From Haloplanus salinus (GTDB taxonomy: Archaea; Halobacteriota; Halobacteria; Halobacteriales; Haloferacaceae): a stretch of 64,000 bases of DNA. Made by a program: the position numbers and the translations under genes. The notes below the pieces were generated by a model. That model was given only the letters and a program-made list of their open reading frames with translations. It did not search any database and was not told where the DNA came from. The number at the start of each line of letters is the position of its first letter. Position 1 is the first letter of the stretch. The stretch spans positions 806,001 to 870,000 of the forward strand of contig NZ_QPHM01000001.1 in the NCBI RefSeq assembly GCF_003336245.1, given 5' to 3'. Of this stretch, positions 39,935-54,971 are shown in pieces.

Positions 39935-41482
39935 TCACCCCCGCTCGGATGGCCGCGTCCGTTCGTCGAAGTAGGCGGCCAGCAGCTTCCGCTGGGCGGC
40001 ACGGAGGTGATGGAGCAGTGTCGATCCGGCGATATCCAGCGAGGTAGCGACTTCTTCCGCCGTGCTTCCCCGGGGCGATTCGAAGTAGTCGGCGAAGTAT
40101 GCGGTTTGGAGGACCGTCCGCTGCCGCCGTGTCAGCCGCTCGTCCAGTTCGTCGCGGAACTCGCGGGCGGTCGTCACGGACCGCTGCCGTTCTTCCTTCG
40201 AGACGAACTTCGCGCCGTGCTCCCGACCGACGGTATCCACGATCCGACGGACGTCGCCGTCCGGCGGAAGGTCCACGACGAGGCGTCCCGTCCCGCCGTC
40301 GAAGCTGGCACGGCGGACGGTCCCGCCGAGCGAGGAGATGGCGAGAAGCGGGGTCGAGCCACGGACGGCGAGTTCGACGCGGCCGCCGGAGTCGGATTCG
40401 CTGACGACCCGCGTTCGTTCGATCGCCGCCATCCCCGCGGTCTCCCGATCGATTCGGTCGACCCCGTCGCCGTCGACCGAGACGAAACAAAGCAGCGCGT
40501 CGTCGCCCTGTGGGACCATCCCTTCCAGCAGCAGGGTCGAGCCGAGCGACTGACTCAGTTGCGCCAGCACCGAGCCGTCGCCGACTTCGAAGGAGATCTC
40601 CGCGACGCTGTCCGAGAGCAACAGGTTCCGATTCCGGACCGCGGTGACCGCGAACCCGGCAATCTCGCCCAGCGTCTCGAAGCTGGCCCGCTCCCGTTCG
40701 GAGAACGCTTCGGTACCGCTCGCGTAGACTCCGACCACCCCGTGGACGTTCGGCCCGTATACGACCGGAATAGCCAGTGCGGACTGGACGCCATCGGCAA
40801 AGCCGGCCGTCCGGACCGGTTCGGGGACCGCCGAACTGTCAGTGAGTGGCTGGACGACCTGCAGTCGACCGCTGCTGACTGCGCGCTCCTCCGGCGTCGT
40901 CACCGTCCCGTCGTCGACCGCGTCGCGGACGGCGTCGAAGATGTCGCCAGTCTCACCCGCGACGGCACGGGAACCGAGACCGTCACGCCCCACGTCGCGT
41001 TCGCCGACCCACGCGAATTCGTACAGGTCGGTCTCACCGAGCCCCCGGCAGATCGTGTCGGCGATTTCCGCGCGCGAGGAGGCGTCGACGAGCGCCGCGA
41101 GGATGTCCGACCGCACGTCCTCGATGAGCTCCGTTCGTTTGCGCTCCTGCCGGAGTCGTCGGAGGGAGCGTTTCCCGCGTCGCCGCTCGGTCACGTCTCG
41201 GAGGTAGACGGTCCCCCCCTCGGCGACCGCAACGACGGAGACGGCGAGCCACCTGTCGAGGTCGGGGTAGTACTCCTCGAACGTCGTCTCGGAGACGGAC
41301 TCGCCGTCGACTGCGGTCAGGAGAGTGTCGTCGACGGACCGGGGGAACACGTCGGCGACGGGGGCGCCAGTCGGGTCCGTGGCGTCGATCAGCGTTCGAC
41401 CGGTCTCGTTGCTATCTAGGACGACCCCCTCGACCGAGACTTCGAGGACGCCGATCGGCGCCCGTCGGAGGCGCTCATCCAT
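39935..41482 (-). CDS. Bat-like regulator (PAS-GAF-HTH_10)
   Basis: A 515-residue cytoplasmic transcription factor of the bacterio-opsin-activator type. Order: PAS (residues 5-100, RRAPIGVLEVSVEGVVLDSN), GAF (about 125-290), the bacterio-opsin-activator module (about 300-440) and a C-terminal HTH_10 (LTRRQRTVLQTAYFADYFES; STAEEVATSLDIAGSTLLHH). It has no receiver- or LOV-like segment. Second member of this class within the island; the other is bat at 49079. It could act on the same promoters or sense a different cue. Confidence 0.88.
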   Translation of the reverse strand: MDERLRRAPIGVLEVSVEGVVLDSNETGRTLIDATDPTGAPVADVFPRSVDDTLLTAVDGESVSETTFEEYYPDLDRWLAVSVVAVAEGGTVYLRDVTERRRGKRSLRRLRQERKRTELIEDVRSDILAALVDASSRAEIADTICRGLGETDLYEFAWVGERDVGRDGLGSRAVAGETGDIFDAVRDAVDDGTVTTPEERAVSSGRLQVVQPLTDSSAVPEPVRTAGFADGVQSALAIPVVYGPNVHGVVGVYASGTEAFSERERASFETLGEIAGFAVTAVRNRNLLLSDSVAEISFEVGDGSVLAQLSQSLGSTLLLEGMVPQGDDALLCFVSVDGDGVDRIDRETAGMAAIERTRVVSESDSGGRVELAVRGSTPLLAISSLGGTVRRASFDGGTGRLVVDLPPDGDVRRIVDTVGREHGAKFVSKEERQRSVTTAREFRDELDERLTRRQRTVLQTAYFADYFESPRGSTAEEVATSLDIAGSTLLHHLRAAQRKLLAAYFDERTRPSERG

Positions 41483-41545
41483 GGCTGGGGGTGTCCCGAT
41501 CGGGTCGTTCCGCGTCGGTCGGACGTACGGGTGCGATCATCGGCG

Positions 41546-42679
41546 TTAGAATCGGATCTCGAACCGTGCCCCACTACCGTCGGCTGTAGTGAGCGTCACG
41601 TCCCAGTCGTGGGCGGCGATGATCCGGTCGACGATTGCGAGGCCGAGTCCCGTTCCGCCGGCGATGGTCGAGTGCCCCGGGTCGAAAACCCGCTCCCGCT
41701 CGTCGGCGGGGATACCGGTGCCGTCGTCGGCGACGTAGAAGCCCTCCTCCAACGCGCCGACGGTGATCCGCACGCTACCGTCGGGAGTCGCCTCGTCACG
41801 TCGGTCGCGGGACCGCTCACCGCTCTCCGGGTCCCGATCCCCGTGCGCGTTCGAGGGGGGTGCGTCCGGGTCACGCTCGACCGGCGCTCCGGGTGGCGTC
41901 CGGGCGTCCGTGGCGTCGTGTGCCACGCCGTCGGCGTGCCGTCTCCGGCTCTCGGAGGAGTTGTGCTCCACGCTGTTCCGAAACAGGTTCTCGAACAGCC
42001 TGCGAACGCGGTCGGCGTCGGCGGTGACGGTCGGGAGTGACCCGGTGAGATCGAGTTCCGCCCCGTCTGTGTCGACCGATCGCCACGCGTCCGTCGCTGC
42101 GGTTTCGACCGAGACGTGATCGGACGGGTCGACGACGGCGTCCCCTCGCGTGAGGGTGAGGACGTCGCGGATGATCCGTTCCATCCGATCGTGTGCGTCG
42201 GCGACCGACTCGAAATGTTCCGGCGCACCCGTCTCCCGCGCCGCCGTGAGATGCGCCTTGGCGACGTCGAGCGGGTTGCGGAGGTCGTGACTGATCACGC
42301 TACTAACCTGGTCGACGGCGGGCATCTCCTCGAGCGTGGGACAGTCCTGCAGGTCGGAGAAGACCAGATATCCGGCGTCCCCATCGGTGGGGATCACCCG
42401 CACGAAGAACGTCCCTCGGTCCTCGGCCCCGTCGAGGTAGATGCCGACGCGATCACCCCGAACGAGGTGGGTCATCGGATCCCGATCGCCGGTCGCAACG
42501 CGGCGACTGAACCGGTCGAACACCCTCGAAACGGGTGCGTCGGGTGACGCATCCTCGACCTGTCGCTCGAAGCTCTCGTTCGTCGTCGTGATGCGGGCGT
42601 CACGACCGTCGACGACGTAGGCGAGAACGGGGTCCGGAAAGGCGTCCACCGGGATCGCGGCACGACACTCGTCGGTCAT
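41546..42679 (-). CDS. PAS histidine kinase with a low-complexity insert
   Basis: A 377-residue soluble kinase. PAS (IPVDAFPDPVLAYVVDGRDA, residues 8-115), H-box SVISHDLRNPLDVAKAHLTA (about 128), HATPase with the N-box FENLFRNSVEHNSSE and DDGTGIPADERERVFDPGHS. Between N-box and G1 box is an insert of about 60 residues, highly charged and Pro/Asp/Arg-rich, probably disordered. The start MTDECRAAIPVDAF is preferred; the open frame upstream is Arg-rich. The AT-rich element at about 42800-42820 may be the promoter. It lies beside crtY and may serve the HalX regulator. Confidence 0.82.
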   Translation of the reverse strand: MTDECRAAIPVDAFPDPVLAYVVDGRDARITTTNESFERQVEDASPDAPVSRVFDRFSRRVATGDRDPMTHLVRGDRVGIYLDGAEDRGTFFVRVIPTDGDAGYLVFSDLQDCPTLEEMPAVDQVSSVISHDLRNPLDVAKAHLTAARETGAPEHFESVADAHDRMERIIRDVLTLTRGDAVVDPSDHVSVETAATDAWRSVDTDGAELDLTGSLPTVTADADRVRRLFENLFRNSVEHNSSESRRRHADGVAHDATDARTPPGAPVERDPDAPPSNAHGDRDPESGERSRDRRDEATPDGSVRITVGALEEGFYVADDGTGIPADERERVFDPGHSTIAGGTGLGLAIVDRIIAAHDWDVTLTTADGSGARFEIRF

Positions 42680-43062
42680 CGGTCCCCTATCGTCCCCCCA
42701 TGCGCTCGTCGCGGGGGCACCAGCCCCGACCGCCGGCGGGGACGCCTCCGAAGGGAACGGGGTGGAACGCGACTCATACGTCCGCGTAAGTTCGGACGCG
42801 TCATTATTATTCCCCCCTGACTCTGAGTCAGAAACACCGCCCCCGCGTCTGCGAGGGTCGCTTCGAACCGCCGAGCGACGCGCCGCGAGCGGCGGGCGGC
42901 GCCGAACCGCCCGGGGGACGGTTCGAATACGCTGCCCGGCACCCGCGACGGCGCCGGGTCGGTGCCGAGGGTCGTTTGGAGCGCGATCGGAGGCAGTTCC
43001 CGTTCGATATCGCACGCCGCGACCCGCCGAGTCCTGCGGTGGTTCCGGCGTCCGGGTGCCGG
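42680..43062. other. Intergenic region upstream of the kinase
   Basis: 383 nt with no convincing gene on either strand. Near 42800-42820 is an A+T-rich run (aataataatgacg in the leftward direction) that is a likely promoter. A GTG (42835) would extend the kinase, but the composition there is not protein-like. Confidence 0.45.
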
Positions 43063-43857
43063 TCACTCGGCTGCGGCGCCGCCGCCGCCGCGGGGAAACA
43101 GGCCGACGAGGCCAGCGACGAGGCCGTCACGCTCGGCCCGTCCGATCACCCAGCGGTAGAGAAGCAGCCCGAAGACGATCAGCGTGTTCGTGACTAGGAA
43201 AAAGACCATCTCCTCGACCGGGAGTCCGGCGACGGCGACGCCGGTGGAGTGGGTCGGCGAGATGGTCCAGAGGCCGCGACCGATCGCGACCCGGTCGATC
43301 GTCCAGAGATACGCCGTCGGGACGAGGATCGCGACCGCGGCGCTACGACGACGGCGCCGGACGAGAGGCCCACCGAGAACCCACAGGAAGCCGAGAATGG
43401 GGCACCCCCACAGGAGGATGTAGCCGAGGTAGTAGCCCGCGGTGGTGTACGAGAGCACGAGGCCGGCGAGTTCGAGCGCGGCGATCACCAGCAGTCCGAC
43501 CGGTCGCGCCGACGCGGTCGCGGGCCGCGTCGGTTCGACCGGGGGGTCGATCGCGTGGAGCCAGCAGCCCGTGAGCGCCGTCTGCAGGGCGAAGAAGGCG
43601 AGTTCGCCGAGCGGAATGACCCCCACGCGCGCCGTCACGACGCCGTTGCCGTACCACCAGACACCGCGCTCGATGAGGTAGCCGTCCCAGACGAACGTGT
43701 ACCCAAACGCGATGAGGACGAGTGCGCCGACGCCGGCGACGTCGGTCGGCGTGCGCAGGCCACCGAGGCGCCACGCGAGAAGCGCCACGACGAGCGTCGG
43801 GACGCCGACCGCGCAGCCGAGAAAGACGAGGTAGGAAGAGTCGACCGGCGGGATCAC
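43063..43857 (-). CDS. crtY: Lycopene beta-cyclase (CrtYc-CrtYd fusion type)
   Basis: A 264-residue membrane enzyme converting lycopene to beta-carotene, the precursor of retinal. Two homologous halves of about three helices each. The first carries IPLGELAFFALQTALTGCWL (PxE motif) and WDGYLIERGVWWYG; the second carries LPVEEMVFFLVTNTLIVFGL and IDRVAIGRGLWTISPT. The PxE(E/L) pair with the following Phe stretches is the signature of archaeal/actinobacterial heterodimer-type cyclases, fused here. It lies 36 nt after crtB on the same strand, so it is co-transcribed. Confidence 0.93.
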   Translation of the reverse strand: MIPPVDSSYLVFLGCAVGVPTLVVALLAWRLGGLRTPTDVAGVGALVLIAFGYTFVWDGYLIERGVWWYGNGVVTARVGVIPLGELAFFALQTALTGCWLHAIDPPVEPTRPATASARPVGLLVIAALELAGLVLSYTTAGYYLGYILLWGCPILGFLWVLGGPLVRRRRRSAAVAILVPTAYLWTIDRVAIGRGLWTISPTHSTGVAVAGLPVEEMVFFLVTNTLIVFGLLLYRWVIGRAERDGLVAGLVGLFPRGGGGAAAE

Positions 43858-43893: not shown

Positions 43894-44862
43894 TCAGTCC
43901 GAGCGAGCGAGCGCATCGCTGGTTGACAGCCGGAGGGACGGTCGTTCGTCGACGCCGTCGGGAGCATCGAGGCCGGTCACCCGATAGAACACCGATCGTG
44001 GGTCGGCGCCGAACTGCCAGCGGAGCCACGTCCGTGCGACCAGCGAGAGGCGGCGGCGCATCGTCAGCGTCGGGCGCGTCGAGAGCACGTCACAGTCCAA
44101 CTGGCGCACGAGTCGGTGCTGGTCGGCGTACATCACGGCGGCGGTCAGCACGGGGAGTTGACAGCCCTTGGGGAGGTATCGAACTCCCTCGACGCCGTAG
44201 TGGTAGAGCTGCTCCGTGCGGGCGAGTTCGTCCCGGACGGCCGCCCGAAACCCGTCGGTGGGGGTGAGCGACGCCACGTCGTCGTGGGAACTGCCGTGTT
44301 CCACGAGCACGCGTTCGGGGAGGTAGATGCGGTCGTAGTCGCGGACGTCCTCGTGGACGTCGCGGAGGAAGTTGGTGAGCTGGAACGCCTCGCCGAGTGC
44401 CGCGGCGTGGGGACGCGCCGTCTCCTTCCGTGGGGGGTCCATCACTTCGAGCATCATGTGGCCGACGGCGGCGGCCGAGCCACGGAGGTACGTCGAGAGT
44501 TCGTCGTGGGTGTGGTAGCGCCGTTTCTCGACGTCCATCAGCATCGAGTCGACGAACGCGTCGACCTCCGCGCGCGGAATGTCGTGGCGCTCGCGGAGAT
44601 CGGCGAAGGCCTCGAGAACCGGGTCGTCCGGTTCACGCTCGCCGAGCGCCGCCGCCCGGAGCCGTTCGAGTTCGCGGCGTCGCTCGGCCGGGGGCGCGGG
44701 GTCCGGGTCGTCGACCACGTCGTCCGCAGTCCGAAAGAAGGCATACAGGACGTACGTCGGATAGCGGACGCGCTCGGGAAGCAGCCGGGTCGCGACGTGA
44801 AACGTCCGACCCGTGTGTCGCTGGATGGCTTTGCTCCGTCGGAGTTGATCGTGTGAGACCAT
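43894..44862 (-). CDS. crtB: Phytoene synthase
   Basis: A 322-residue enzyme joining two geranylgeranyl diphosphates into phytoene. Seen: the first Asp-rich motif FFRTADDVVDDPDPAPPAER (DxxxD, about residue 38), VDSMLMDVEKRRYHTHDELS, the second motif FLRDVHEDVRDYDRIYLPER, and QLTNFLRD. The start MVSHDQLRRSKAIQRHTGRT gives the haloarchaeal N-terminus; upstream codons look non-coding. A palindromic CCC-N10-GGG element lies 81 nt upstream (44943-44958). First gene of the crtB-crtY operon. Confidence 0.95.
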   Translation of the reverse strand: MVSHDQLRRSKAIQRHTGRTFHVATRLLPERVRYPTYVLYAFFRTADDVVDDPDPAPPAERRRELERLRAAALGEREPDDPVLEAFADLRERHDIPRAEVDAFVDSMLMDVEKRRYHTHDELSTYLRGSAAAVGHMMLEVMDPPRKETARPHAAALGEAFQLTNFLRDVHEDVRDYDRIYLPERVLVEHGSSHDDVASLTPTDGFRAAVRDELARTEQLYHYGVEGVRYLPKGCQLPVLTAAVMYADQHRLVRQLDCDVLSTRPTLTMRRRLSLVARTWLRWQFGADPRSVFYRVTGLDAPDGVDERPSLRLSTSDALARSD

Positions 44863-44969: not shown

Positions 44970-45305
44970 TCAGTACTCGTGGAACGACTCCCCACAGCGT
45001 CGACACTCGATGGTCGTCGGGCCGAACCAGCGACGGACTTTCTCGACCGGGCCGTGACACTCCGGACAGACCCCCATGCCGCGGTCGTCGGCCGCACGAA
45101 CCGACATGTCGAGGAGTAGCTCCTCCAACTCCTCGATCCGCGCCTCCTGCTCCTCGACGGTCTCCTGTAACTGATCGACGCGCTGTTCGTACGCCTCCGC
45201 GGAGTCGAGGTCGACGACGACGTCCTCGACGGCGTCTCGGTCGACGTCTTTGGACGGGTCGACGTCGGCGTCGGTTTCGACCGTCCGGTCGGTGTCCTCG
45301 CTCAT
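44970..45305 (-). CDS. Coiled-coil zinc-ribbon protein
   Basis: A 111-residue protein. Acidic N-terminus, a coiled coil at about 40-75 (YEQRVDQLQETVEEQEARIE), and a C-terminal zinc ribbon with two Cys pairs: VCPECHGPVEKVRRWFGPT and IECRRCGESFHEY. Unknown role; the ribbon suggests nucleic-acid or protein binding. The start MSEDTDRTVETDA is preferred to an in-frame ATG 11 codons upstream. Transcribed away from the second opsin gene. Confidence 0.75.
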   Translation of the reverse strand: MSEDTDRTVETDADVDPSKDVDRDAVEDVVVDLDSAEAYEQRVDQLQETVEEQEARIEELEELLLDMSVRAADDRGMGVCPECHGPVEKVRRWFGPTTIECRRCGESFHEY

Positions 45306-45436: not shown

Positions 45437-45450
45437 ACCCATCAGTTTGG
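45437..45450. promoter_or_regulatory. Putative Bat-type UAS upstream of the second opsin
   Basis: ACCCATCAGTTTGG, fitting ACC-N8-TTnG, 38 nt before the ATG at 45488. The same distance class is seen at bop (41 nt). Confidence 0.6.
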
Positions 45451-45487: not shown

Positions 45488-46255
45488 ATGATCCCCGATC
45501 CGGCGACGTGGCCGTCGACGGTCGTGGGCGGTCCGGAGACGGCCGTCCTCGCCTGTGGCGCGGGACTGCTCGGGACCGGGGCGCTGTGGATCGCGCTGCG
45601 GAGCGTCGGCGCGACGGACGAGCGGGCGACTCGCCTGTACGCGCTCGCGGCGCTGATTCCGGCCATCGCCCTCGCGTCGTACGTGGCGATGGCGACCGGC
45701 GTCGGGGTGGTCGCCGTGCCGATCGGTGGGCGGGGTCCCGTGGAGCTTCGGTGGGCCCGGTACGCGGATTGGCTCTTCACCACGCCGCTGCTGTTGCTCG
45801 TTCTCGGCGTCCTGGTCGACGCGGATCGGGACGCGCTGTTCGGCGCGGTGGCCGCCGACGCGTTCATGATCGCGACCGGGCTCGTGGCCACCCTGTCGAC
45901 GGTGCCGGTCTATCGCTACGTCTGGTGGGCCGTCAGCACGCTCACGTTCCTCCTCGTGCTGTACTTCGTGTTCGTCGTCCTCACGGCCGAGGCGCGGGCG
46001 CTCGGAACGGAGACGGCGTCGGCGTTCGTCGTGTTCCGTACCCTCACTGGGGTGCTGTGGACGGCGTACCCCGTCTGGTGGCTGCTCGGTCCGCGAGGAC
46101 TCGCGGCCGTCACGCCGGTGGTCGAGACGGCCGGGTTCGTGCTCCTCGACGTGGCGACGAAGGCCGGTATCGGCCTGTTGCTGCTCCGGAGCCGGGCGGT
46201 CGGCGACGGGACGGCCACGACGAAGTCGGACGGACGCCCCGTCGCCACCGAGTGA
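45488..46255 (+). CDS. Microbial rhodopsin, sensory/middle-rhodopsin-like
   Basis: A 255-residue seven-helix retinal protein. Helix C reads ARYADWLFTTPLLLLVLGVL: counter-ion Asp and Thr (bR D85/T89 equivalents) are kept, but the donor position (bR D96) is Val. Helix G reads FVLLDVATKAGIGLLLLRSR, with the retinal Lys preceded by Thr, as in sensory rhodopsin II (T204-K205), where proton-pumping bacteriorhodopsin has Ala. The combination indicates a slow-photocycle sensor- or middle-rhodopsin-like protein rather than an efficient pump. No Htr transducer gene is nearby. The start MIPDPATWPSTVVGG is the best of several in-frame ATGs; helix A begins soon after. Confidence 0.9.
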   Translation: MIPDPATWPSTVVGGPETAVLACGAGLLGTGALWIALRSVGATDERATRLYALAALIPAIALASYVAMATGVGVVAVPIGGRGPVELRWARYADWLFTTPLLLLVLGVLVDADRDALFGAVAADAFMIATGLVATLSTVPVYRYVWWAVSTLTFLLVLYFVFVVLTAEARALGTETASAFVVFRTLTGVLWTAYPVWWLLGPRGLAAVTPVVETAGFVLLDVATKAGIGLLLLRSRAVGDGTATTKSDGRPVATE

Positions 46256-46256
46256 G

Positions 46257-46424
46257 TCAAGCGAATCGGCCCATGTAGACGCCGGCGACGGCGATGGCCG
46301 CCGCCATCACCACGTTGAGCCCGCCGGGGACGACACGTCCCAACGAGAGCCGGTAGACGCCGAACGCGAACAGTCCGAGCGCGACGACGACGTGGACGCC
46401 GACGACGAGTCGCTGTCTATCCAT
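46257..46424 (-). CDS. Small two-helix membrane protein beside the second opsin
   Basis: A 55-residue protein MDRQRLVVGVHVVVALGLFA with two helices (about 6-24 and 34-51), ending GVYMGRFA. Convergent with the opsin, whose stop is 1 nt away. It lies 50 nt upstream of the AAA gene's end in the opposite sense of reading. Possibly a conserved small haloarchaeal membrane protein; role unknown. Confidence 0.6.
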   Translation of the reverse strand: MDRQRLVVGVHVVVALGLFAFGVYRLSLGRVVPGGLNVVMAAAIAVAGVYMGRFA

Positions 46425-46474: not shown

Positions 46475-48508
46475 TCACGCCGCGTCGTCGGTCGACGGCC
46501 GCGTGTTCTGGACCGCCCGTTCGAGGTGGGCCGACTCGACGACGAGTCCGTCGAGCGCGCCGGTGGACGACTCGGTTCGGAGGTGAGCCTCCATGGCGAG
46601 CAGCGCCGCCTCCCGAACGACGCCGGCGAGGTCGCTGCCCGAGTAACCGGCCGTCTCGGCCGCCACGGCGGCGGTGTCGACGTCCCGCGTCGGTACGTCG
46701 TCGAGGAGAACCGCGAGGATCTCGGCCCGCGCCGCCTCGTCGGGAAGGGGGACGGCCACCCGCCGCTCGATGCGGCCGGGACGCAACAGCGCCGGATCGA
46801 CCGCGTCCACGCGGTTGGTCGCCCCCAGCACCGCCACGTCGCCACGCGCCGAGAGGCCGTCGAGTTCGGTCAGGAGTTGGGAGACGACCCGCTCGGCCGC
46901 GCCAGTGTCCGTCTCCCGGCGGGCGGGGGCGAACGCGTCGAGTTCGTCGAGAAAGACAATCGACGGCGCGGTCCGGCGGGCGCGCTCGAACACCTCGCGG
47001 ACGCCGCGCTCGCTCTCCCCAACGTACCGATCCATCAGCTCCGGGCCGTCGACCGCGAGGAAGTTCGCGTCCGTCGAGTTCGCGACCGCCTTCGCGAGCA
47101 TGGTCTTTCCGGTCCCCGGCGGCCCGTAGAGGAGGACGCCGGTCGGCGCCGTGGCCGACAGGCGTTCGAACAGGGCCGGATATCGGAGCGGCCACTCGAC
47201 CGTCCGGATCACCTCGCGTTTCGCCTCGGTCAGCCCCCCGACGTCGCGGTAGGTGACCGACGGGCGCTCGACGGTGACGTCCCGGAGCGTCGAGGGACCG
47301 ACGGCGTCGAGCGCCGCCGATACGTCACGGGAGGCGACGACGGGGTCGTCGTCGCCCCGGGCGACCGCGCGTGTGGCGGCGTCGACGAGGAGCGCTTCGA
47401 GGTCGGCGCCGGTGTAGCCGTGCGTGCGTGCCGCGACCGCGTCGAGGTCGACGTCGGCCGCGAGCCGGACGTCCGCGGCGTGGCACGCGAGGATCTCGCG
47501 TCGCGCCGGCCGGTCGGGAACGCCGACGCGGACTTCGGCGTCGAAGCGCCCGCCCCGCCGGAGGGCGGGGTCCACCTCGTCGGGGTGGGCGGTCTCACCG
47601 ACGACGACGACCTCGTCGCGGTCGCGAACCCGGTCGAGGAGCCAGCCGACCTGGGACGTGGGGCGCGCCTCCCGACCGGAGTCGGGATCGGGGGCGGCGA
47701 CCGCGAGGTCCTCCAGAAAGAGGATCGCCGGGGCGTCGTTCGCCGCCTCGCGCAGCGCCGTCGACAGCGACGAGCGGCGGGCACAGTCGTCCGGCGGCAC
47801 GTCGTGGACGGTGATCGCCGCATCGGCGGCGACGCGCCGCACGAGGAGGCTCTTCCCGGTTCCGGGCGGCCCGTGGACGAGGACGCCGGCGGGCGTTCGC
47901 GCGCCGACGCGGGCGTACGCCTTCGACAGGGGGTCGACCACCAGGCGACGGAGCCTCGCGCGTTCGTCGTTTAGCCCGGCGACGCGCCCGCTCGGGGTCG
48001 AGGGCGGCGCTCCGTCGCTCCGTTCGCGCACGTCGAGGGTGGTTTCGGGGGTCACGACGGCCGGCCCCGACGGGTCGAGGTCGACCACGACCAGGGAGAC
48101 GACGACGCTTCCCCCGAACAGGCGTGCGTCGACCCGGTCGTCGATCGTCAGCGGACGGCCGACGAGCGCCCGCGCGAGGGCGTCCGGGGACCCGTCGAGC
48201 GACGAGGCGAGCGGTCGAACCGTGACCGTCCGGGCGGGAACGGGCGACACCGGGTCGACGGCGACGGTCGAGCCGTCCCCGGCCTCGACGTTTCGTCCGA
48301 CCGCCTCGCCCACGAGGACGGTCCCGTCCGGCAGATCGTGACAGTCCTCGCCGACCGTCGCGACGGTGGTGGCGCCACCCTCGATTCGGACGGTGTCGCC
48401 GGCGTCGGCGCCGACCTGCCGGCGCGTCGCCGGTGCGAACCTGACGGCATCGCCCGCGACCGCCCACGTTCCGTCTCCGTCGGCCGCGATGGAGAGCTGC
48501 GTGGTCAT
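46475..48508 (-). CDS. Cdc48/VCP-like AAA+ ATPase, two AAA domains
   Basis: A 677-residue protein. An N-terminal double-psi-barrel-like region (residues 1-170, MTTQLSIAADGDGTWAVAGD) is followed by two AAA modules. D1 has Walker A HGPPGTGKSLLVRRV (about 220), Walker B ILFLEDLAVAAPD and RRGGRFDAEVRV. D2 has Walker A YGPPGTGKTMLAKAVA (about 470), Walker B IVFLDELDAFAPAR and the Arg finger region RPGRIERR. D1 Walker B has ED rather than DE, which may affect hydrolysis. A dedicated unfoldase inside the rhodopsin island and sharing its regulatory element. Upstream ATGs are avoided because the chosen one begins the fold. Confidence 0.87.
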   Translation of the reverse strand: MTTQLSIAADGDGTWAVAGDAVRFAPATRRQVGADAGDTVRIEGGATTVATVGEDCHDLPDGTVLVGEAVGRNVEAGDGSTVAVDPVSPVPARTVTVRPLASSLDGSPDALARALVGRPLTIDDRVDARLFGGSVVVSLVVVDLDPSGPAVVTPETTLDVRERSDGAPPSTPSGRVAGLNDERARLRRLVVDPLSKAYARVGARTPAGVLVHGPPGTGKSLLVRRVAADAAITVHDVPPDDCARRSSLSTALREAANDAPAILFLEDLAVAAPDPDSGREARPTSQVGWLLDRVRDRDEVVVVGETAHPDEVDPALRRGGRFDAEVRVGVPDRPARREILACHAADVRLAADVDLDAVAARTHGYTGADLEALLVDAATRAVARGDDDPVVASRDVSAALDAVGPSTLRDVTVERPSVTYRDVGGLTEAKREVIRTVEWPLRYPALFERLSATAPTGVLLYGPPGTGKTMLAKAVANSTDANFLAVDGPELMDRYVGESERGVREVFERARRTAPSIVFLDELDAFAPARRETDTGAAERVVSQLLTELDGLSARGDVAVLGATNRVDAVDPALLRPGRIERRVAVPLPDEAARAEILAVLLDDVPTRDVDTAAVAAETAGYSGSDLAGVVREAALLAMEAHLRTESSTGALDGLVVESAHLERAVQNTRPSTDDAA

Positions 48509-48555
48509 GTCGCGATCCGGGCGGATGGAGGTACCGGGGCACAAAAGCGTCCATC

Positions 48556-48571
48556 CCAACAGGATTTGGGA
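48556..48571. promoter_or_regulatory. Putative Bat-type UAS for the AAA gene
   Basis: CCCAACAGGATTTGGG, nCC-N7-TTnG, 48 nt before the AAA start at 48508. A TATA-like GCTTTTGTG lies immediately beyond it in the leftward direction. It pairs with a second element 8 nt away for the divergent gene. Confidence 0.6.
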
Positions 48572-48579
48572 GTGGCGTA

Positions 48580-48594
48580 CCAAACAAGTTTGGA
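48580..48594. promoter_or_regulatory. Putative Bat-type UAS for the SRPBCC gene
   Basis: ACCAAACAAGTTTGG, the closest match in the window to the ACCcnactagTTnG consensus as I recall it, 46 nt before the ATG at 48641. Confidence 0.65.
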
Positions 48595-49078: not shown

Positions 49079-51088
49079 TCAGTCGTCGAAAAACGCCTCG
49101 ACGAGCTTCCGTTTCGCCGCCTGCAGGTGTTGGTGATACGTCGACGCCACGATATCCATCGACTCCGCGAGCTGTTGGCCCTCGGCCTCCCGGGGCCACT
49201 CGAAGTAGCCGCCGACGTACGCTTTCTGCAGCGCGACGAGCTGGCGCTCGGTGAGTTCGTTTCGCAGTTCCTCCCGGAAGGTGTAGGCCGTCCGCTCCGG
49301 ATCGGCCTCGTGGTAGGCGCGCAGTTCGACGTGGTCGTACGTCTCCCGAAGCGCATCGAGGACGCGGTTCGCGGCGCGTTCGGTGCCGGTCCGGAAGTCC
49401 AGTTCGAGCGCTCGACCGTCCGCGGACATGGCGGTGATGCGGGTTCCGAACTCCGAGAGGACGTCGACCAGCGGCGAGTCGTCGAGGCGGAACTGGACGA
49501 TCACCTCGTCGTCGGTCTCGGCCAGCGTCTCTGCGTCGAGCACGCGATCGGACGCCGCCGCCGTCTCGACGACCGTCTCCGCCTCGCTACCGTCGGTGGA
49601 GACGATGGTGAGGACGCTATCGTCGTCGGGGATCGTCGCCTCGTGTTCGAAGCGGGCGTCGAGTTTCCGCGCGAGGTCGACGAGAAAGAGGTCGTCGGTG
49701 AGTTCGACGCTGATCTCGAGGACGGTGTCGCTCGTGATCGTCCGCTTGGTTAGCACGTCGTTGATCGACGCCCCCACGCTCCGGCCAAGCGACGCCAGGA
49801 CCACCCGCTCGCGGTCGTCGGCGGGCGAGCCGTCGTCGAAGACGGCCAACACGCCGTAGGTCGTGGCGCGGTACGTCAGCGGAACGAGCACGCACGTCCC
49901 GTCGGGCGCGTCGGCCCCGAACCCGGTCGTGTCCGCGGTCGACCGGAGCTCCTGTTCCTCGACCGCCTCGCGGAGCGCGTCGATACACGGGCCGTCGCCG
50001 TCGAGGTCGAACGACCCATCCGAGCCGTCGTGTTCGCCCGCGGCCTCGGTGACGGAGACGCGGTTCGCCGTGGCGTCGTAGCGCCCGAGCCACGCGCCTG
50101 CGTACTCGTCCTCGCCACCGATGCGGTCGGTGACGAAGCGCTCGATCTCCTCGCGGCTCCCGGCGCGGACGATTCCTTCCGTCACGTCGTGGATCAGCCC
50201 GTTCACGCGGTCGAGCACCCGGTCCAGCGCCTCGCGCTCGGACTGTAGCTGTTGTCGGGCGGCCTTGCGCTCGGTCACGTCCATCTGGAAGCCGACGTAG
50301 TGTGTCACCTCGCCGTCGTCGTCGAAGATGGGGCTGATCTCGACCTGGTTCCAGAACATCTTCCCCGCTCGGGTGTAGTTCCGGAGGACGACCCGCGTGT
50401 TCCGTTCCTTGGCGAGCCCTTCGGCCAGTTCTGCCACGCGGTCGGGGTCGGTGTCGGGTCCCTGGAGGAAGCGATGGTTGGCCCCGATGACCTCCTCCGG
50501 CGAGTAGCCGGTCGTCTCCTCGAAGGAGTCGTTCACGTAGATCAGCGGCTGGTCGGGGGCCGTCGCGTCGGAGATGGTGATGCCGATGGGCGCCTCGTCG
50601 AGCGCTCGCTCTTTCAGCCGGTGCTCGGCCTTGACGGTGAGATCCGAGATCGGCATCCGCACCGATTCGACCGCGGACGCGTCGGCGTTGTTCTCGACGG
50701 CCGTGATGATCGATTCGAGGGCGTCCGGGGCGGTGGCCGGCACGAGCGCAGTGGCGTCGGCGTCGACGGCGCGCCGGGCCACGTCGGCGTCGACCGACTC
50801 CGGGAGAAGCACCACGGGCAACTCGGGGTGTTCCACCCGGATCGTTTCGAGGAAAGCGACCCCGTCGAAGCCGTCGTGGCGGTGCGTCGCGACGACGCAG
50901 TCGACCGCGCCCCGATCGATCCGATCGCGGGCGTCGACGAAGTCGGCCGACCGATCGACCACGAGGCGGTCGGTGGCGGCCGCGAGGTCGTCGCTCGTCG
51001 GCCCCTCGCTCGGAGGGTCGCCCGCGAAGAGGACGGCGATGCTCGGTGCCTCCGTCGTCGCGGGTCGTGACGTGGGTTGCTGGCTCAT
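49079..51088 (-). CDS. bat: Bacterio-opsin activator Bat (PAS-GAF-HTH_10)
   Basis: A 669-residue cytoplasmic activator of bop and related genes. Order: an N-terminal receiver-like segment without a clear phospho-Asp (residues 15-135), PAS/LOV-like domain (about 165-280), GAF (about 300-450), bacterio-opsin-activator region and C-terminal HTH_10 (LTERQLVALQKAYVGGYFEW; AESMDIVASTYHQHLQAAKR). The PAS core reads GANHRFLQGPDTD: the LOV photoactive Cys of GxNCRFLQ is His here, so a flavin-cysteinyl photocycle should not form. The start overlaps the crtI stop by 4 nt (ATGA), placing bat last in the blh-crtI-bat operon. Confidence 0.95.
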   Translation of the reverse strand: MSQQPTSRPATTEAPSIAVLFAGDPPSEGPTSDDLAAATDRLVVDRSADFVDARDRIDRGAVDCVVATHRHDGFDGVAFLETIRVEHPELPVVLLPESVDADVARRAVDADATALVPATAPDALESIITAVENNADASAVESVRMPISDLTVKAEHRLKERALDEAPIGITISDATAPDQPLIYVNDSFEETTGYSPEEVIGANHRFLQGPDTDPDRVAELAEGLAKERNTRVVLRNYTRAGKMFWNQVEISPIFDDDGEVTHYVGFQMDVTERKAARQQLQSEREALDRVLDRVNGLIHDVTEGIVRAGSREEIERFVTDRIGGEDEYAGAWLGRYDATANRVSVTEAAGEHDGSDGSFDLDGDGPCIDALREAVEEQELRSTADTTGFGADAPDGTCVLVPLTYRATTYGVLAVFDDGSPADDRERVVLASLGRSVGASINDVLTKRTITSDTVLEISVELTDDLFLVDLARKLDARFEHEATIPDDDSVLTIVSTDGSEAETVVETAAASDRVLDAETLAETDDEVIVQFRLDDSPLVDVLSEFGTRITAMSADGRALELDFRTGTERAANRVLDALRETYDHVELRAYHEADPERTAYTFREELRNELTERQLVALQKAYVGGYFEWPREAEGQQLAESMDIVASTYHQHLQAAKRKLVEAFFDD

Positions 51089-52608
51089 ACGTTGGGGAGG
51101 ACGTCGCTGAACGGCGAGGCACGGGCGTCACGGGCGGCTGCCTCGGCGGCGTGTTCGCCGCTGATGACGGCCATCGGGAGGCCGACGCCGGGTGACGTGA
51201 ACGCGCCGGCGTAGTAGAGGTTTTCCACCCCCGGCGCGTGGTGTGCAGGGCGCAGCGGCCCGGTCTGATCGAGCGTGTGTGCGAGGCCGAGGGCGGTCCC
51301 GCCGGGGGTCCGGTAGCGGTCGGCGAACTCGGAGACACAGGCCGATCGCTCGGCGACGATCCGATCGCGCAGGTCGACGCCCGTCGTCGCCGCGAGGTCC
51401 GCGAGGACCGCCTCGCGGAACTCGGCGACGCGGTCCGGATCGTCGTCCAAGCCGGGCGCGAGGGGGACGAGGACGACGACGGCGTGGTGCCCGTCCGGAG
51501 CCACAGTCTCGTCGGTCCGGGAGGCGACGGAGAGGTAGTACGCGGGGTTTTCTGGCCAGGCCGGATCGTCGAAGATCCGCTCGAAGTGGGGGTCCCAGTC
51601 CATCGGGAAGACGAGCGTGTGGTGGGCCAGCGGGTCGACGTCGCCCTCGACGCCGAGATACAGCATGAGCGCGGACGGCCCGTAGGTGAGCGACTCCCAG
51701 TAGTCGGCCGAGCGCCCCCGGCCGTCGGGGAGCAGGTCGCACTCGACGTGGGCCGGGTTCGCGTTCGCGACGACACGGTCCGCGAACTGGGCGTGCCCGT
51801 CGCCGCCGACCACGCGTAGCCCACCGTCGACGGGCACGAGGTCGGTTACCTCGTCGCCCGTTCGGTACGTGACCCCGAGTTCGCGCCCGAGGTCGGCGAG
51901 CGCTTCGACGAGCGCGTACATGCCGCCCTCGGGGTAGTAGACGCCGCGCTCGAAGTCGACGTGTGCCATCAGGTTGTACAGCGACGGGGCGTCGTGGGGC
52001 GAGCTACCGAGGAAGACGAGGGTGTACTGGAGGAGCTGCTGGAGCTTCGGCTCGTCGAAGTACCCCTCGACGTAGCCCTGCATCGACCCGAGGTGGGTGA
52101 GCGCCGGTGCCGCCCGGACGATGCTGGGGTCGATCAGGTCGCGAAGCCGGGAGCGGTCGGCGTAGACGAACCGCTCCATGCCGAGTTCGTACGTTCGCCG
52201 CGCCGTTTCGAGGTAGTCGTCCAGCGCGTCGGCGGCGCCGGCTTCGTAGGACTCGAACGCGCGCCGTACCTGGTCGAGGTCGGGCGTCACGTCGACCCGG
52301 TCGCCGTCCTTCCAGAACACTCGATACTGGGGGTCGAGGCGTTCGATCGCGTAGTAGTCGCTCGACTCGCGGCCGAAGTGGCCGAAAAAGCGGTCGAACG
52401 TCTCGGGCATCATGTACCACGATGGGCCGGTGTCGAAGGTGAACTCCCCGACCTCGAGTCGGTTGGTGACGCCGCCGAGCGTGTCGTTCCGTTCTACGAC
52501 GGTCACCGTCGCGCCGGCGTCGGCGAGATAGCAGGCCGCGGTGAGGCCCGCGACGCCGCCGCCGACGACGGCGACCGTCTCGTCGGTGAGTGGAGTGTCG
52601 TCGATCAT
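51085..52608 (-). CDS. crtI: CrtI-type phytoene desaturase/dehydrogenase
   Basis: A 507-residue FAD enzyme converting phytoene to lycopene. Seen: dinucleotide-binding VAVVGGGVAGLTAACYLADA (residues 12-31), TVVERNDTLGGVTNRLEVGE, FDTGPSWYMMPETFDRFF, and the C-terminal FAD signature YYAGAFTSPGVGLPMAVISG. Membrane-associated. It lies between blh (49-nt gap upstream) and bat (4-nt overlap), so retinal-precursor synthesis, cleavage and regulation are co-transcribed. Haloarchaea often carry several CrtI paralogues for bacterioruberin synthesis, so the exact substrate is inferred. Confidence 0.92.
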   Translation of the reverse strand: MIDDTPLTDETVAVVGGGVAGLTAACYLADAGATVTVVERNDTLGGVTNRLEVGEFTFDTGPSWYMMPETFDRFFGHFGRESSDYYAIERLDPQYRVFWKDGDRVDVTPDLDQVRRAFESYEAGAADALDDYLETARRTYELGMERFVYADRSRLRDLIDPSIVRAAPALTHLGSMQGYVEGYFDEPKLQQLLQYTLVFLGSSPHDAPSLYNLMAHVDFERGVYYPEGGMYALVEALADLGRELGVTYRTGDEVTDLVPVDGGLRVVGGDGHAQFADRVVANANPAHVECDLLPDGRGRSADYWESLTYGPSALMLYLGVEGDVDPLAHHTLVFPMDWDPHFERIFDDPAWPENPAYYLSVASRTDETVAPDGHHAVVVLVPLAPGLDDDPDRVAEFREAVLADLAATTGVDLRDRIVAERSACVSEFADRYRTPGGTALGLAHTLDQTGPLRPAHHAPGVENLYYAGAFTSPGVGLPMAVISGEHAAEAAARDARASPFSDVLPNV

Positions 52609-52657: not shown

Positions 52658-53731
52658 TCATGGCACGTACCAGATACCCCGCTCGCGGTCCAGCCACGCG
52701 CCGACGACGACGTGGGGGAGGGCAATGATGCTGATGAAGATGCTCCAGAACGCCACCAACCCGACGAGGAGGCCGGCACCCCCGAGCGGTCGGGGTGAGA
52801 CGGCCCACAGGCCGGCAGCGAGGCCGAACGTCGCGAGGCTCCCCACGACGAGAACGCCCCACGAGGCCAGCGCCACCCGTTTGGGGTCGCTCGAATCGAA
52901 CGCGTCTAACAGCCCCGCGTTCGCCTCCGGGTCGATGGCGTCGTTGACCGCCGTGGTCCGGGCGACCTGTCTGGCGGAGTACCACAACGGGAAGTAGAGC
53001 CCGACGGCGATCACGACGGGGACGACGGCGAAGTAGACCACGAGCAGGAGGGTCTCGGCGGCGTCGGCGCGGAAGGAGCCGGTGTGAGAGGCGTTCCGGT
53101 AGCCGAGACCGAGGTGAGCGACCAGAACCGCGCCGTAGCCGGCGCCGATGAGGAGGCGCCGGGTCCCCAGGTCGCCCGCGACGCCCGCGAGCGCGCCCGG
53201 TTCGAAGATGTTCACCATGATGGTGCTGAACGCGTAGAACGTCTCCGGCCAGAACACCATCGGGACTGCCATCACCGCGCCACCGCGGGCGGCCGCGGCG
53301 AGCCACCGCTGGGGCCGCGAGCGCAGGTGGTCGGTGCCGTACAGCGCATCCATCGCGTGGACGTCGCCGAAGCCACCCTTTGCCACCGCGACGCCCACCG
53401 CGAGGGCTAAGCCGGCCACGGGGGCGACGAAGAGCAGCCCGGCAAACAGGGAGATGCCGACGAGATACGCGCCGACGTACCGTCCCTGAAACGTCGTCGC
53501 GCGCCGGCGCAGGTTCTCGAAGTGTTCGTAGCCGCCGTGTGGCAGGTTCATCGCCACCATCCCGAGGAGGTAGACGCCGGCCTGTATCCGGAGCGGGATC
53601 CGCAGGTCGGCGACCCGAATCGCGGCAAACCCCACGACGAGGGCGAGAAGCGCCGTCCGCGAGACGGTGAGCGGGACGCTGTCGGCGGCGTCCACGAGAC
53701 GTCGCGACGTACCGATTTGGGATTCGGTCAT
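52658..53731 (-). CDS. blh: Brp/Blh family beta-carotene 15,15'-dioxygenase
   Basis: A 357-residue integral membrane enzyme cleaving beta-carotene into two retinals. Seen: the iron-His motifs MNLPHGGYEHFENLRRRATT (His pair, about residue 65), KGGFGDVHAMDALYG, and ALPHVVVGAWLDRERGIWYV at the C-terminus, with about eight helices. The start MTESQIGTSRRLVDAADS is preferred because the sequence before it is not protein-like. A TATA-like TTTTAATG (about 53763) and a UAS (53773-53787) lie directly upstream in the right order. First gene of blh-crtI-bat. Confidence 0.94.
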   Translation of the reverse strand: MTESQIGTSRRLVDAADSVPLTVSRTALLALVVGFAAIRVADLRIPLRIQAGVYLLGMVAMNLPHGGYEHFENLRRRATTFQGRYVGAYLVGISLFAGLLFVAPVAGLALAVGVAVAKGGFGDVHAMDALYGTDHLRSRPQRWLAAAARGGAVMAVPMVFWPETFYAFSTIMVNIFEPGALAGVAGDLGTRRLLIGAGYGAVLVAHLGLGYRNASHTGSFRADAAETLLLVVYFAVVPVVIAVGLYFPLWYSARQVARTTAVNDAIDPEANAGLLDAFDSSDPKRVALASWGVLVVGSLATFGLAAGLWAVSPRPLGGAGLLVGLVAFWSIFISIIALPHVVVGAWLDRERGIWYVP

Positions 53732-53772
53732 GTGACGATTCGGCGTACGTCCCACCGGGGCATTAAAACGAA

Positions 53773-53787
53773 CCCGAATTGATTGGG
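53773..53787. promoter_or_regulatory. Putative Bat-type UAS upstream of blh
   Basis: CCCGAATTGATTGGG, nCC-N7-TTnG, followed leftward by the TATA-like TTTTAATG and then the blh start 42 nt away. The clearest UAS-TATA arrangement in the set. Confidence 0.65.
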
Positions 53788-53846
53788 TATGGGGTGCGTC
53801 GACAGTGAAGGAACGTTTAACAGACGGGACCGCATTGCTCCGCTCA

Positions 53847-54029
53847 GTGCCGATTACCGAACTGCCGTGTCCACAGTGTGGCTCCGAGGTCAAGATGGGA
53901 CTGCCCCGGGGCGCGACGGTGAAGTCAGTCACTGCGGCGGAGCGGGCGGAGCCGGCGGCGCCGAGGCGGAAGATGCGGTCGCTCGTCTGTCACAACGACC
54001 ACGAACTCCACGTCGTGTTCGAGTGGTGA
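53847..54029 (+). CDS. brz: Brz: bacteriorhodopsin-regulating zinc-finger protein
   Basis: A 60-residue small protein VPITELPCPQCGSEVKMGLP with Cys-x2-Cys and a second half SLVCHNDHELHVVFEW supplying the remaining zinc ligands. Size, N-terminus and position just upstream of bop match Brz of Halobacterium, known to be needed for full bop induction. The GTG at 53847 lies about 28 nt after a TATA-like GTTTAAC (53814-53820), so a leaderless start is favoured over the in-frame GTG 14 codons earlier. Divergent from blh. Confidence 0.85.
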   Translation: MPITELPCPQCGSEVKMGLPRGATVKSVTAAERAEPAAPRRKMRSLVCHNDHELHVVFEW

Positions 54030-54125: not shown

Positions 54126-54139
54126 ACCGCACAGATTGG
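54126..54139. promoter_or_regulatory. Putative Bat-type UAS upstream of bop
   Basis: ACCGCACAGATTGG, matching ACC...TTnG, 41 nt before the bop ATG at 54180. A GTTAC box (54148-54152) sits between. A weaker candidate GCCGAAATCGTTTG is at 54050-54063. Confidence 0.65.
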
Positions 54140-54179: not shown

Positions 54180-54971
54180 ATGTCAGGAGCACTGTCGACG
54201 ATGTCGAACGTGGCATTGCAGATGGGACAGATCACGTCCCGGCCGGAGTGGATCTGGCTGGCGCTCGGGACGGCGCTGATGGGCCTCGGCACCCTGTACT
54301 TCATGGTGCGCGGCATGGGCGTCGAGGACCCCGAAGCGAAGAAGTTCTACGCGATCACGACGCTGGTTCCGGCGATCGCGTTCACGATGTACCTCTCGAT
54401 GCTGCTTGGGTACGGCGTGACGATGGTGCCGTTCGGCGGCGAAGAGCACCCGATCTACTGGGCCCGGTACGCCGACTGGCTGTTCACGACCCCGCTCCTG
54501 TTGCTCGACCTCGCGCTGTTGGTCGACGCTGACCGCGGGACCATCCTGGCGCTGGTCGGCGCGGACGGCATCATGATCGGCACCGGCCTCATCGGCGCCC
54601 TGACGCAGGTGTACCAGTTCCGCTTCGTCTGGTGGGCCGTCAGCACGGCAGCGATGCTGTACATCCTGTACGTGCTGTTCTTCGGCTTCACCCAGAAGGC
54701 AAGCGAGATGCAAGAGGACGTCGCCTCGACGTTCAAGGTCCTGCGGAACCTCACCATCGTGCTCTGGTCGGCCTACCCGGTCGTGTGGCTGGTCGGCTCC
54801 GAGGGCGTGGGTATCGTCCCGCTCGGCGTCGAGACCCTGCTGTTCATGGTTCTCGACGTGAGTGCGAAGGTCGGGTTCGGCCTCCTCCTGCTCCGTAGCC
54901 GCGCCATCTTCGGCGAGACGACGGCCCCCGAGCCGTCCGCCGGCGAGGGCGCCACGGCCGCGGGCGACTGA
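54180..54971 (+). CDS. bop: Bacteriorhodopsin (proton pump)
   Basis: A 263-residue light-driven proton pump. N-terminal pre-sequence (MSGALSTMSNVALQMGQITS), then seven helices. Helix C is ARYADWLFTTPLLLLDLALL, with D85, T89 and D96 equivalents all present (the DTD pump signature). Helix G is LLFMVLDVSAKVGFGLLLLR, with Ala before the retinal Lys as in bacteriorhodopsin. The C-terminal tail is acidic and disordered. Start: the ATG at 54180; a second ATG at 54201 is possible. Downstream, T6 at 54989-54994 looks like the transcription terminator. Flanked by brz, the blh-crtI-bat operon and a small membrane gene. Confidence 0.97.
   Translation: MSGALSTMSNVALQMGQITSRPEWIWLALGTALMGLGTLYFMVRGMGVEDPEAKKFYAITTLVPAIAFTMYLSMLLGYGVTMVPFGGEEHPIYWARYADWLFTTPLLLLDLALLVDADRGTILALVGADGIMIGTGLIGALTQVYQFRFVWWAVSTAAMLYILYVLFFGFTQKASEMQEDVASTFKVLRNLTIVLWSAYPVVWLVGSEGVGIVPLGVETLLFMVLDVSAKVGFGLLLLRSRAIFGETTAPEPSAGEGATAAGD

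Follow-up and report, generated by a model that had tools for sequence, protein, structure and literature searches.

The bop cluster of Haloplanus salinus carries, besides the bacteriorhodopsin gene bop, a second rhodopsin gene (hereafter opsin2) that encodes Val at the proton-donor site of helix C and Thr before the retinal lysine. This raises the question of whether its product pumps protons, senses light, or has lost its light function. We addressed it in a 64-kb stretch of DNA, referred to as the window, and in related genomes. The sequence-only reading of this stretch had described a rhodopsin with an Asp-Thr-Val helix C and a Thr-Lys pair, and both the intact open reading frame and the alignment to H. 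salinarum bacteriorhodopsin (bR) agree with it. Residues are numbered after H. salinarum bR, via alignment, unless they appear in the list below.

Gene, fold, and key residues of opsin2

45488..46255, plus strand: opsin2, 255 aa, with D94, T98, V105, R203, T209, L219, T224, and K225 (bR D85, T89, D96, E194, P200, V210, A215, and K216, respectively)
45800..45802, plus strand: Val codon at the Asp96 proton-donor site, by alignment to bR
46157..46162, plus strand: Thr-Lys pair of DVATK (bR 215-216)

The open reading frame matched the profile PF01036 (E 6.6e-52), and NCBIfam assigned no family to it. Its GC content by codon position (70/55/91%) resembled that of genuine haloarchaeal genes, and a pseudogene was ruled out by the stop-free frame and the strong third-position GC. 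An AlphaFold model based on 40 aligned relatives displayed seven helices with a mean pLDDT of 91. The nearest solved structures were archaerhodopsin-2, H. walsbyi bR, and bR (Z 32-33, 41-49% identity), and among the nearest was also 3t45, the phototaxis-signalling A215T mutant of bR.

Opsin2 is 47-49% identical to bR and has its fold and pocket in common with it. Retained residues include R82, D85, W86, T89, T90, D115, W182, Y185, W189, E204, D212, and K216, so that the retinal lysine and the R82-D85-T89-D212 Schiff-base site of a bR-type pump are present. The replacements are D96V, T46A, E194R, P200T, V210L, and A215T. Through the first three of these, the cytoplasmic donor, its hydrogen-bond partner T46, and half of the proton release pair (now Arg194 with Glu204) are missing from a protein whose Schiff-base site is intact. 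Identity to bR reached 83% over 29 retinal-pocket positions and 43% elsewhere, and thus retinal binding looks to be under selection. The pocket differs from that of bR by M20L, V49I, F54L, M145F, and A215T.

Some of these replacements have been made in the laboratory. The single change A215T makes bR signal weakly through HtrII in phototaxis, and P200T and V210Y enhance the signalling (PMC3274258); changes of the A215T type also blue-shift pumps (PMC4479019). Two of the three residues of the engineered protein BR-T, Thr215 and Thr200, occur naturally in opsin2, and position 210 is Leu, not Tyr, leaving the SRII residue set incomplete.

Opsin2 resembles the SRII of Natronomonas pharaonis (NpSRII) in the Thr204-Tyr174 pair and Thr189 (NpSRII numbering), the lack of Asp96, V49I, M145F, and Pro at bR position 193. 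It differs in having neither the Tyr199 of NpSRII nor htrII, and it keeps W138, S141, T142, and D115 as in bR. The Thr-Lys pair had been read as the mark of sensory rhodopsin II, which holds for the NpSRII form; the SRII proteins of Halobacterium and Haloplanus carry Ser-Lys.

Middle rhodopsin (MR) has an 11-cis retinal component, an SRII-like colour, and no pumping activity. It is the closest functional parallel to opsin2, and we know of no proven partner for it. The MR of Haloquadratum walsbyi (HwMR; HQ_1017A; L140; PDB 9jws, 8xhw) is likewise the second opsin of a bop cluster near a zinc-ribbon gene, has no transducer in the surrounding 10-kb stretch, and has lost E194. The pocket substitutions V49I, M145F, and A215T are common to opsin2, HwMR, and NpSRII, so that the proposed likeness to MR stands for the pocket. 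It does not extend to helix C: HwMR keeps Asp96, together with Thr46 and Thr215, where opsin2 has Val96. HwMR is also only 38% identical to opsin2 and sits on a separate branch, and MR proteins carry Ala (Thr in genome G321) at position 200 and Met or Val at position 210.

Genomic neighbourhood

43063..43857, minus strand: lycopene cyclase family gene (PF18916)
43894..44862, minus strand: crtB phytoene synthase (PF00494; start approximate)
44970..45305, minus strand: CPxCG zinc-ribbon gene, divergent from opsin2
46257..46424, minus strand: 55-aa small membrane protein, occurring also in clusters without opsin2
46475..48583, minus strand: CDC48-type AAA ATPase of the bop cluster
49079..51088, minus strand: Bat-type regulator (receiver-like, PAS, GAF, BAT, HTH_10)
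51085..52608, minus strand: FAD amine-oxidase family protein, probably carotenoid desaturase-like
52658..53932, minus strand: Brp/Blh beta-carotene 15,15'-dioxygenase of retinal synthesis (PF15461)
53805..54029, plus strand: Brz-like small CPxCG zinc-finger ORF, immediately upstream of bop
54180..54971, plus strand: canonical bacteriorhodopsin gene bop, with D85-T89-D96 and DVSAK

Opsin2 lies 8.7 kb from bop. The cluster of H. salinarum contains the same zinc-finger gene, a CDC48 paralog, crtB1, bat, brp, brz, and bop (PMC2253796, PMC3184054), and the zinc-ribbon gene of the window is, by position and motif, the probable counterpart of H. salinarum OE3095R. As the sequence-only reading had it, the neighbours of opsin2 are this divergent gene, the small membrane gene, and the AAA ATPase, with no transducer gene adjacent. 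The order of these three genes is kept in clusters without opsin2 (genomes G004, G086, and G148), which rules them out as dedicated partners and rules out the small membrane gene as a truncated transducer. After the cyclase gene and on the same strand (39935-43066) lie a BAT/HTH_10 regulator and a histidine kinase, whose ORF overlaps that of the cyclase by 4 nt; close homologues of the two were not seen at the same place in three related clusters examined.

Distribution and phylogeny of the opsin2 clade

A profile search of 170 genomes of the family separated opsin2 genes from other rhodopsins by a wide score gap (353 bits and up versus 267 and below). Five genomes carried one, four of Haloplanus and one (G158) of another genus. 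All five genes occupy one slot, flanked on one side by the zinc-ribbon gene and on the other by the small membrane gene and CDC48, and lie about 8.7 kb from bop wherever both are on one stretch. The clusters of G004, G086, and G148 have the neighbouring genes and lack opsin2, and no opsin remnant was found in their empty slots. The genome of the window (4 contigs, 99.9% complete) has Haloplanus ruber as its closest named relative, and a scan of a genome collection yielded this species as the one named relative (53%). Six rhodopsins are encoded in the window genome, namely bop, opsin2, two further pump-like proteins, HR, and SRI.

Asp96 is absent from all five opsin2 proteins, being replaced by Val in the window and by Gly, Gly, Ala, and Ala in the four relatives. 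The Schiff-base site is kept in the four members that bear the retinal lysine; three of them have Ala215, and only the window member has Thr215. In the G158 protein (L155:12369-13148, minus strand), Thr replaces the retinal lysine (ALDLLATIGF) and Met replaces bR T90. Haloarchaeal opsins that departed from pumping have been described as opsin-related proteins, or ORPs (Becker 2016, PMC4915679). Window opsin2 differs from these in having its lysine (K225), and the G158 relative shares the lack of it. The Lys-to-Thr loss in G158 arose within the bop-cluster clade and is distinct from the known Arg/Leu ORP clade, which is related to sensory opsins (PMC4915679). It suggests a loss of light function in the opsin2 slot.

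In a tree of 77 rows, the five opsin2 proteins grouped together (99/94). Their clade lies on the pump side, outside MR and SRII and in no clade of confirmed pumps. When two long rows were left out, G158 among them, the remaining four still formed one clade (99/91), with the SRII group apart. AU tests rejected a grouping of window opsin2 with SRII (p 0.0006) and one that joins it to MR to the exclusion of its sisters (p 0.002), and did not reject that of the whole opsin2 clade with MR (p 0.247). The tree does not support the proposed MR-like evolutionary intermediate, nor does it show window opsin2 as a link between MR and SRII. It places the protein in the bop-cluster clade, where Ala215 is found in the other members that bind retinal. 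At least four changes at position 215 are needed on the tree. Given this placement, the Ala215 of the sisters, and the AU rejections, Thr215 of the window protein is best read as an independent, convergent gain.

When 391 genomes were searched with an exact DNA pattern for such a helix G with Thr-Lys, only the window gene and one SRII-like gene with an adjacent transducer matched, a lower bound since the strict pattern missed MR. In genome G032, an SRII-like rhodopsin (L193) carries Asp96 (RYADWLITTPLLILD), Tyr210, and Thr215 (LYLDLITK) directly after a transducer ORF, and looks like an Asp-Thr-Asp intermediate with a transducer.

At two Haloquadratum loci (L158 and L159), MR is likewise part of the bop cluster and only a ferredoxin-like ORF separates it from the zinc-ribbon gene. 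This arrangement hints that the cluster has had a second opsin since early times. MR and opsin2 might descend from such a gene, an origin that is compatible with any of the functions discussed below. The shared cluster, the nearness of the same zinc-ribbon gene, and the AU test of the whole clade speak for it. Nevertheless, the free tree separates the two groups, MR retains Asp96, and the sisters of window opsin2 lack Thr215, and we consider a common origin rather unlikely.

An upstream element shared with bop

45437..45450, plus strand: bop-type element ACCCATCAGTTTGG, 37 nt before the opsin2 ATG, position and spacing matched in all five opsin2 genes
54126..54139, plus strand: bop-type element ACCGCACAGATTGG, 40 nt before the bop ATG

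Every opsin2 gene is preceded by [AC]CCCATSAGTTTGG, ending 37-39 nt before the ATG. The bop genes of the window and of four relatives display the same frame, [AC]CC-N5-G[AT]TTGG, at 39-40 nt (45 nt in G086); for two further bop genes, the 120 nt next to the start used contained no exact match. Within the window, ACC-N5-GWTTGG occurs twice, only upstream of opsin2 and bop, where chance predicts 0.5 copies and 8 of 100 shuffled sequences contain two. A slightly narrower form has eight copies in 3.5 Mb. The TATA-like stretch of window opsin2 is weaker than those of its sisters. In Halobacterium, a UAS lies 5' to bop, brp, and crtB1 (PMC1447603), and by form and spacing we infer that the window element corresponds to it.

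Opsin2 of the window thus carries a bop-type element at a bop-like distance (37 versus 40 nt) and is probably expressed together with bop. The element is less likely to belong to the zinc-ribbon promoter, because a separate conserved stretch precedes that gene on the opposite strand. Weakened copies occur without any opsin in G004 (two mismatches) and G148 (one mismatch) and may be relics or serve something else.

Transducers in the genome

No htr gene was found near window opsin2. A search of its own genome with the full HtrII of G009, where srII lies directly behind htrII and served as positive control, returned only other methyl-accepting chemotaxis proteins (MCPs), matched in their signalling part, and two N-terminal matches (28-29%) without an MCP module. 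As no HtrII N-terminus is paired with an MCP module, an orphan HtrII was ruled out as partner. Seven MCPs are encoded: HtrI, one with a periplasmic domain between two transmembrane (TM) helices, one with multiple TM helices, and four soluble ones. HtrI, of 530 aa, is the sole transducer with two TM helices and no periplasmic domain, and its gene overlaps the adjacent SRI gene. The search for orphan transducers thus yielded neither HtrII nor an unpaired two-TM transducer of the HtrI/HtrII kind in the whole genome. With CheA and seven MCPs present, a taxis pathway is there for a sensor to feed.

Two side observations concern this inventory. The N-terminal half of an MCP at L094:845-3445 contains several TM helices, where receptors usually have two. 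SRII is absent from the window genome, versus present in 9 of 11 other Haloplanus genomes, and SRI and HtrI are present.

Possible functions of opsin2

Judged by its sequence, opsin2 is a member of a bop-cluster paralog clade without the donor, and this member appears to have convergently acquired SRII/MR-like pocket residues. Thr215 and Thr200, together with Leu210 and the absence of HtrII, speak for a receptor that does not pump, is slow and blue-shifted, and has no partner of the HtrII type. We tentatively prefer, ahead of each alternative below and without holding it as established, that opsin2 is a bR-derived paralog coregulated with bop, inefficient as a pump, that acts as a slow-cycling photoreceptor of this kind; on this reading its role would probably be sensory. 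Retinal from the crtB, cyclase, and Brp genes of the same cluster would bind K216. Light would isomerise it against Thr215, with energy stored, as in SRII, by hydrogen bonding between Thr215 and Tyr185, and the Schiff-base proton would pass to Asp85. With Asp96 and Thr46 missing on the uptake side and Glu194 changed to Arg on the release side, M decay would be slow and net pumping weak or nil, and the long-lived state could alter the F/G face, to be read by a partner other than HtrII. Against a sensor stand the Leu at the docking Tyr position (bR 210), the absence of HtrII, the lack of an adjacent transducer, the loss of the retinal lysine in one member of the clade, and the fact that MR, the nearest parallel in function, is not known to have a partner either. 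As one of five members has Thr215, sensing would be recent and species-specific.

Next in our ranking, though unlikely, is a weak or conditional proton pump, in which Asp85 and Thr89 would serve proton release and reprotonation would come slowly from the cytoplasm via water, as in bR D96N. D85, T89, R82, D212, and E204 are retained, the closest PDB folds are archaerhodopsins and bR, and a promoter of the bop type would have the protein made when pumping pays. Yet D96, T46, and E194 are all replaced, D96 is lost clade-wide although bop itself sits in the same clusters, and A215T is a signalling change. HwMR, moreover, reportedly does not pump even with D96 (Sudo 2011). Somewhat less probable still is an opsin decaying under relaxed selection, its light function gone and Thr215 and Thr200 being chance changes. 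The long branch (0.68), the patchy presence among the family genomes, the lysine loss in G158, and the clean absence from G004, G086, and G148 would fit such decay. They have to be set against an open frame with strong third-position GC bias, a pocket conserved far above the rest of the protein and changed in ways that match SRII and MR, and a conserved promoter element. Least probable of all is a sensor that borrows HtrI, the transducer neighbouring SRI, in a genome devoid of SRII and HtrII. HtrI is the only transducer there with two TM helices and no periplasmic domain, but it adjoins and overlaps its own SRI gene, and SRII loss and Thr215 gain coincide in one genome only.

A photoreceptor without an HtrII-type partner could also represent a second, independent origin of a light sensor from bR, with two of the three BR-T changes, the donor dropped, a bop-type promoter, and a non-HtrII partner, followed in G158 by loss of the lysine from the same slot. 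This wider scenario is possible but doubtful.

Most of what is understood about pump-to-sensor evolution comes from the engineered BR-T and from a single natural protein, MR, to which opsin2 would add a second natural case. If true, it may be a natural repeat of the laboratory conversion. The sisters with Ala215 and the one member that does not bind retinal make the order of changes, with the donor lost first and Thr215 gained later, testable with real proteins. Our findings also suggest that the purple-membrane regulon of some haloarchaea includes an opsin that is not a pump.
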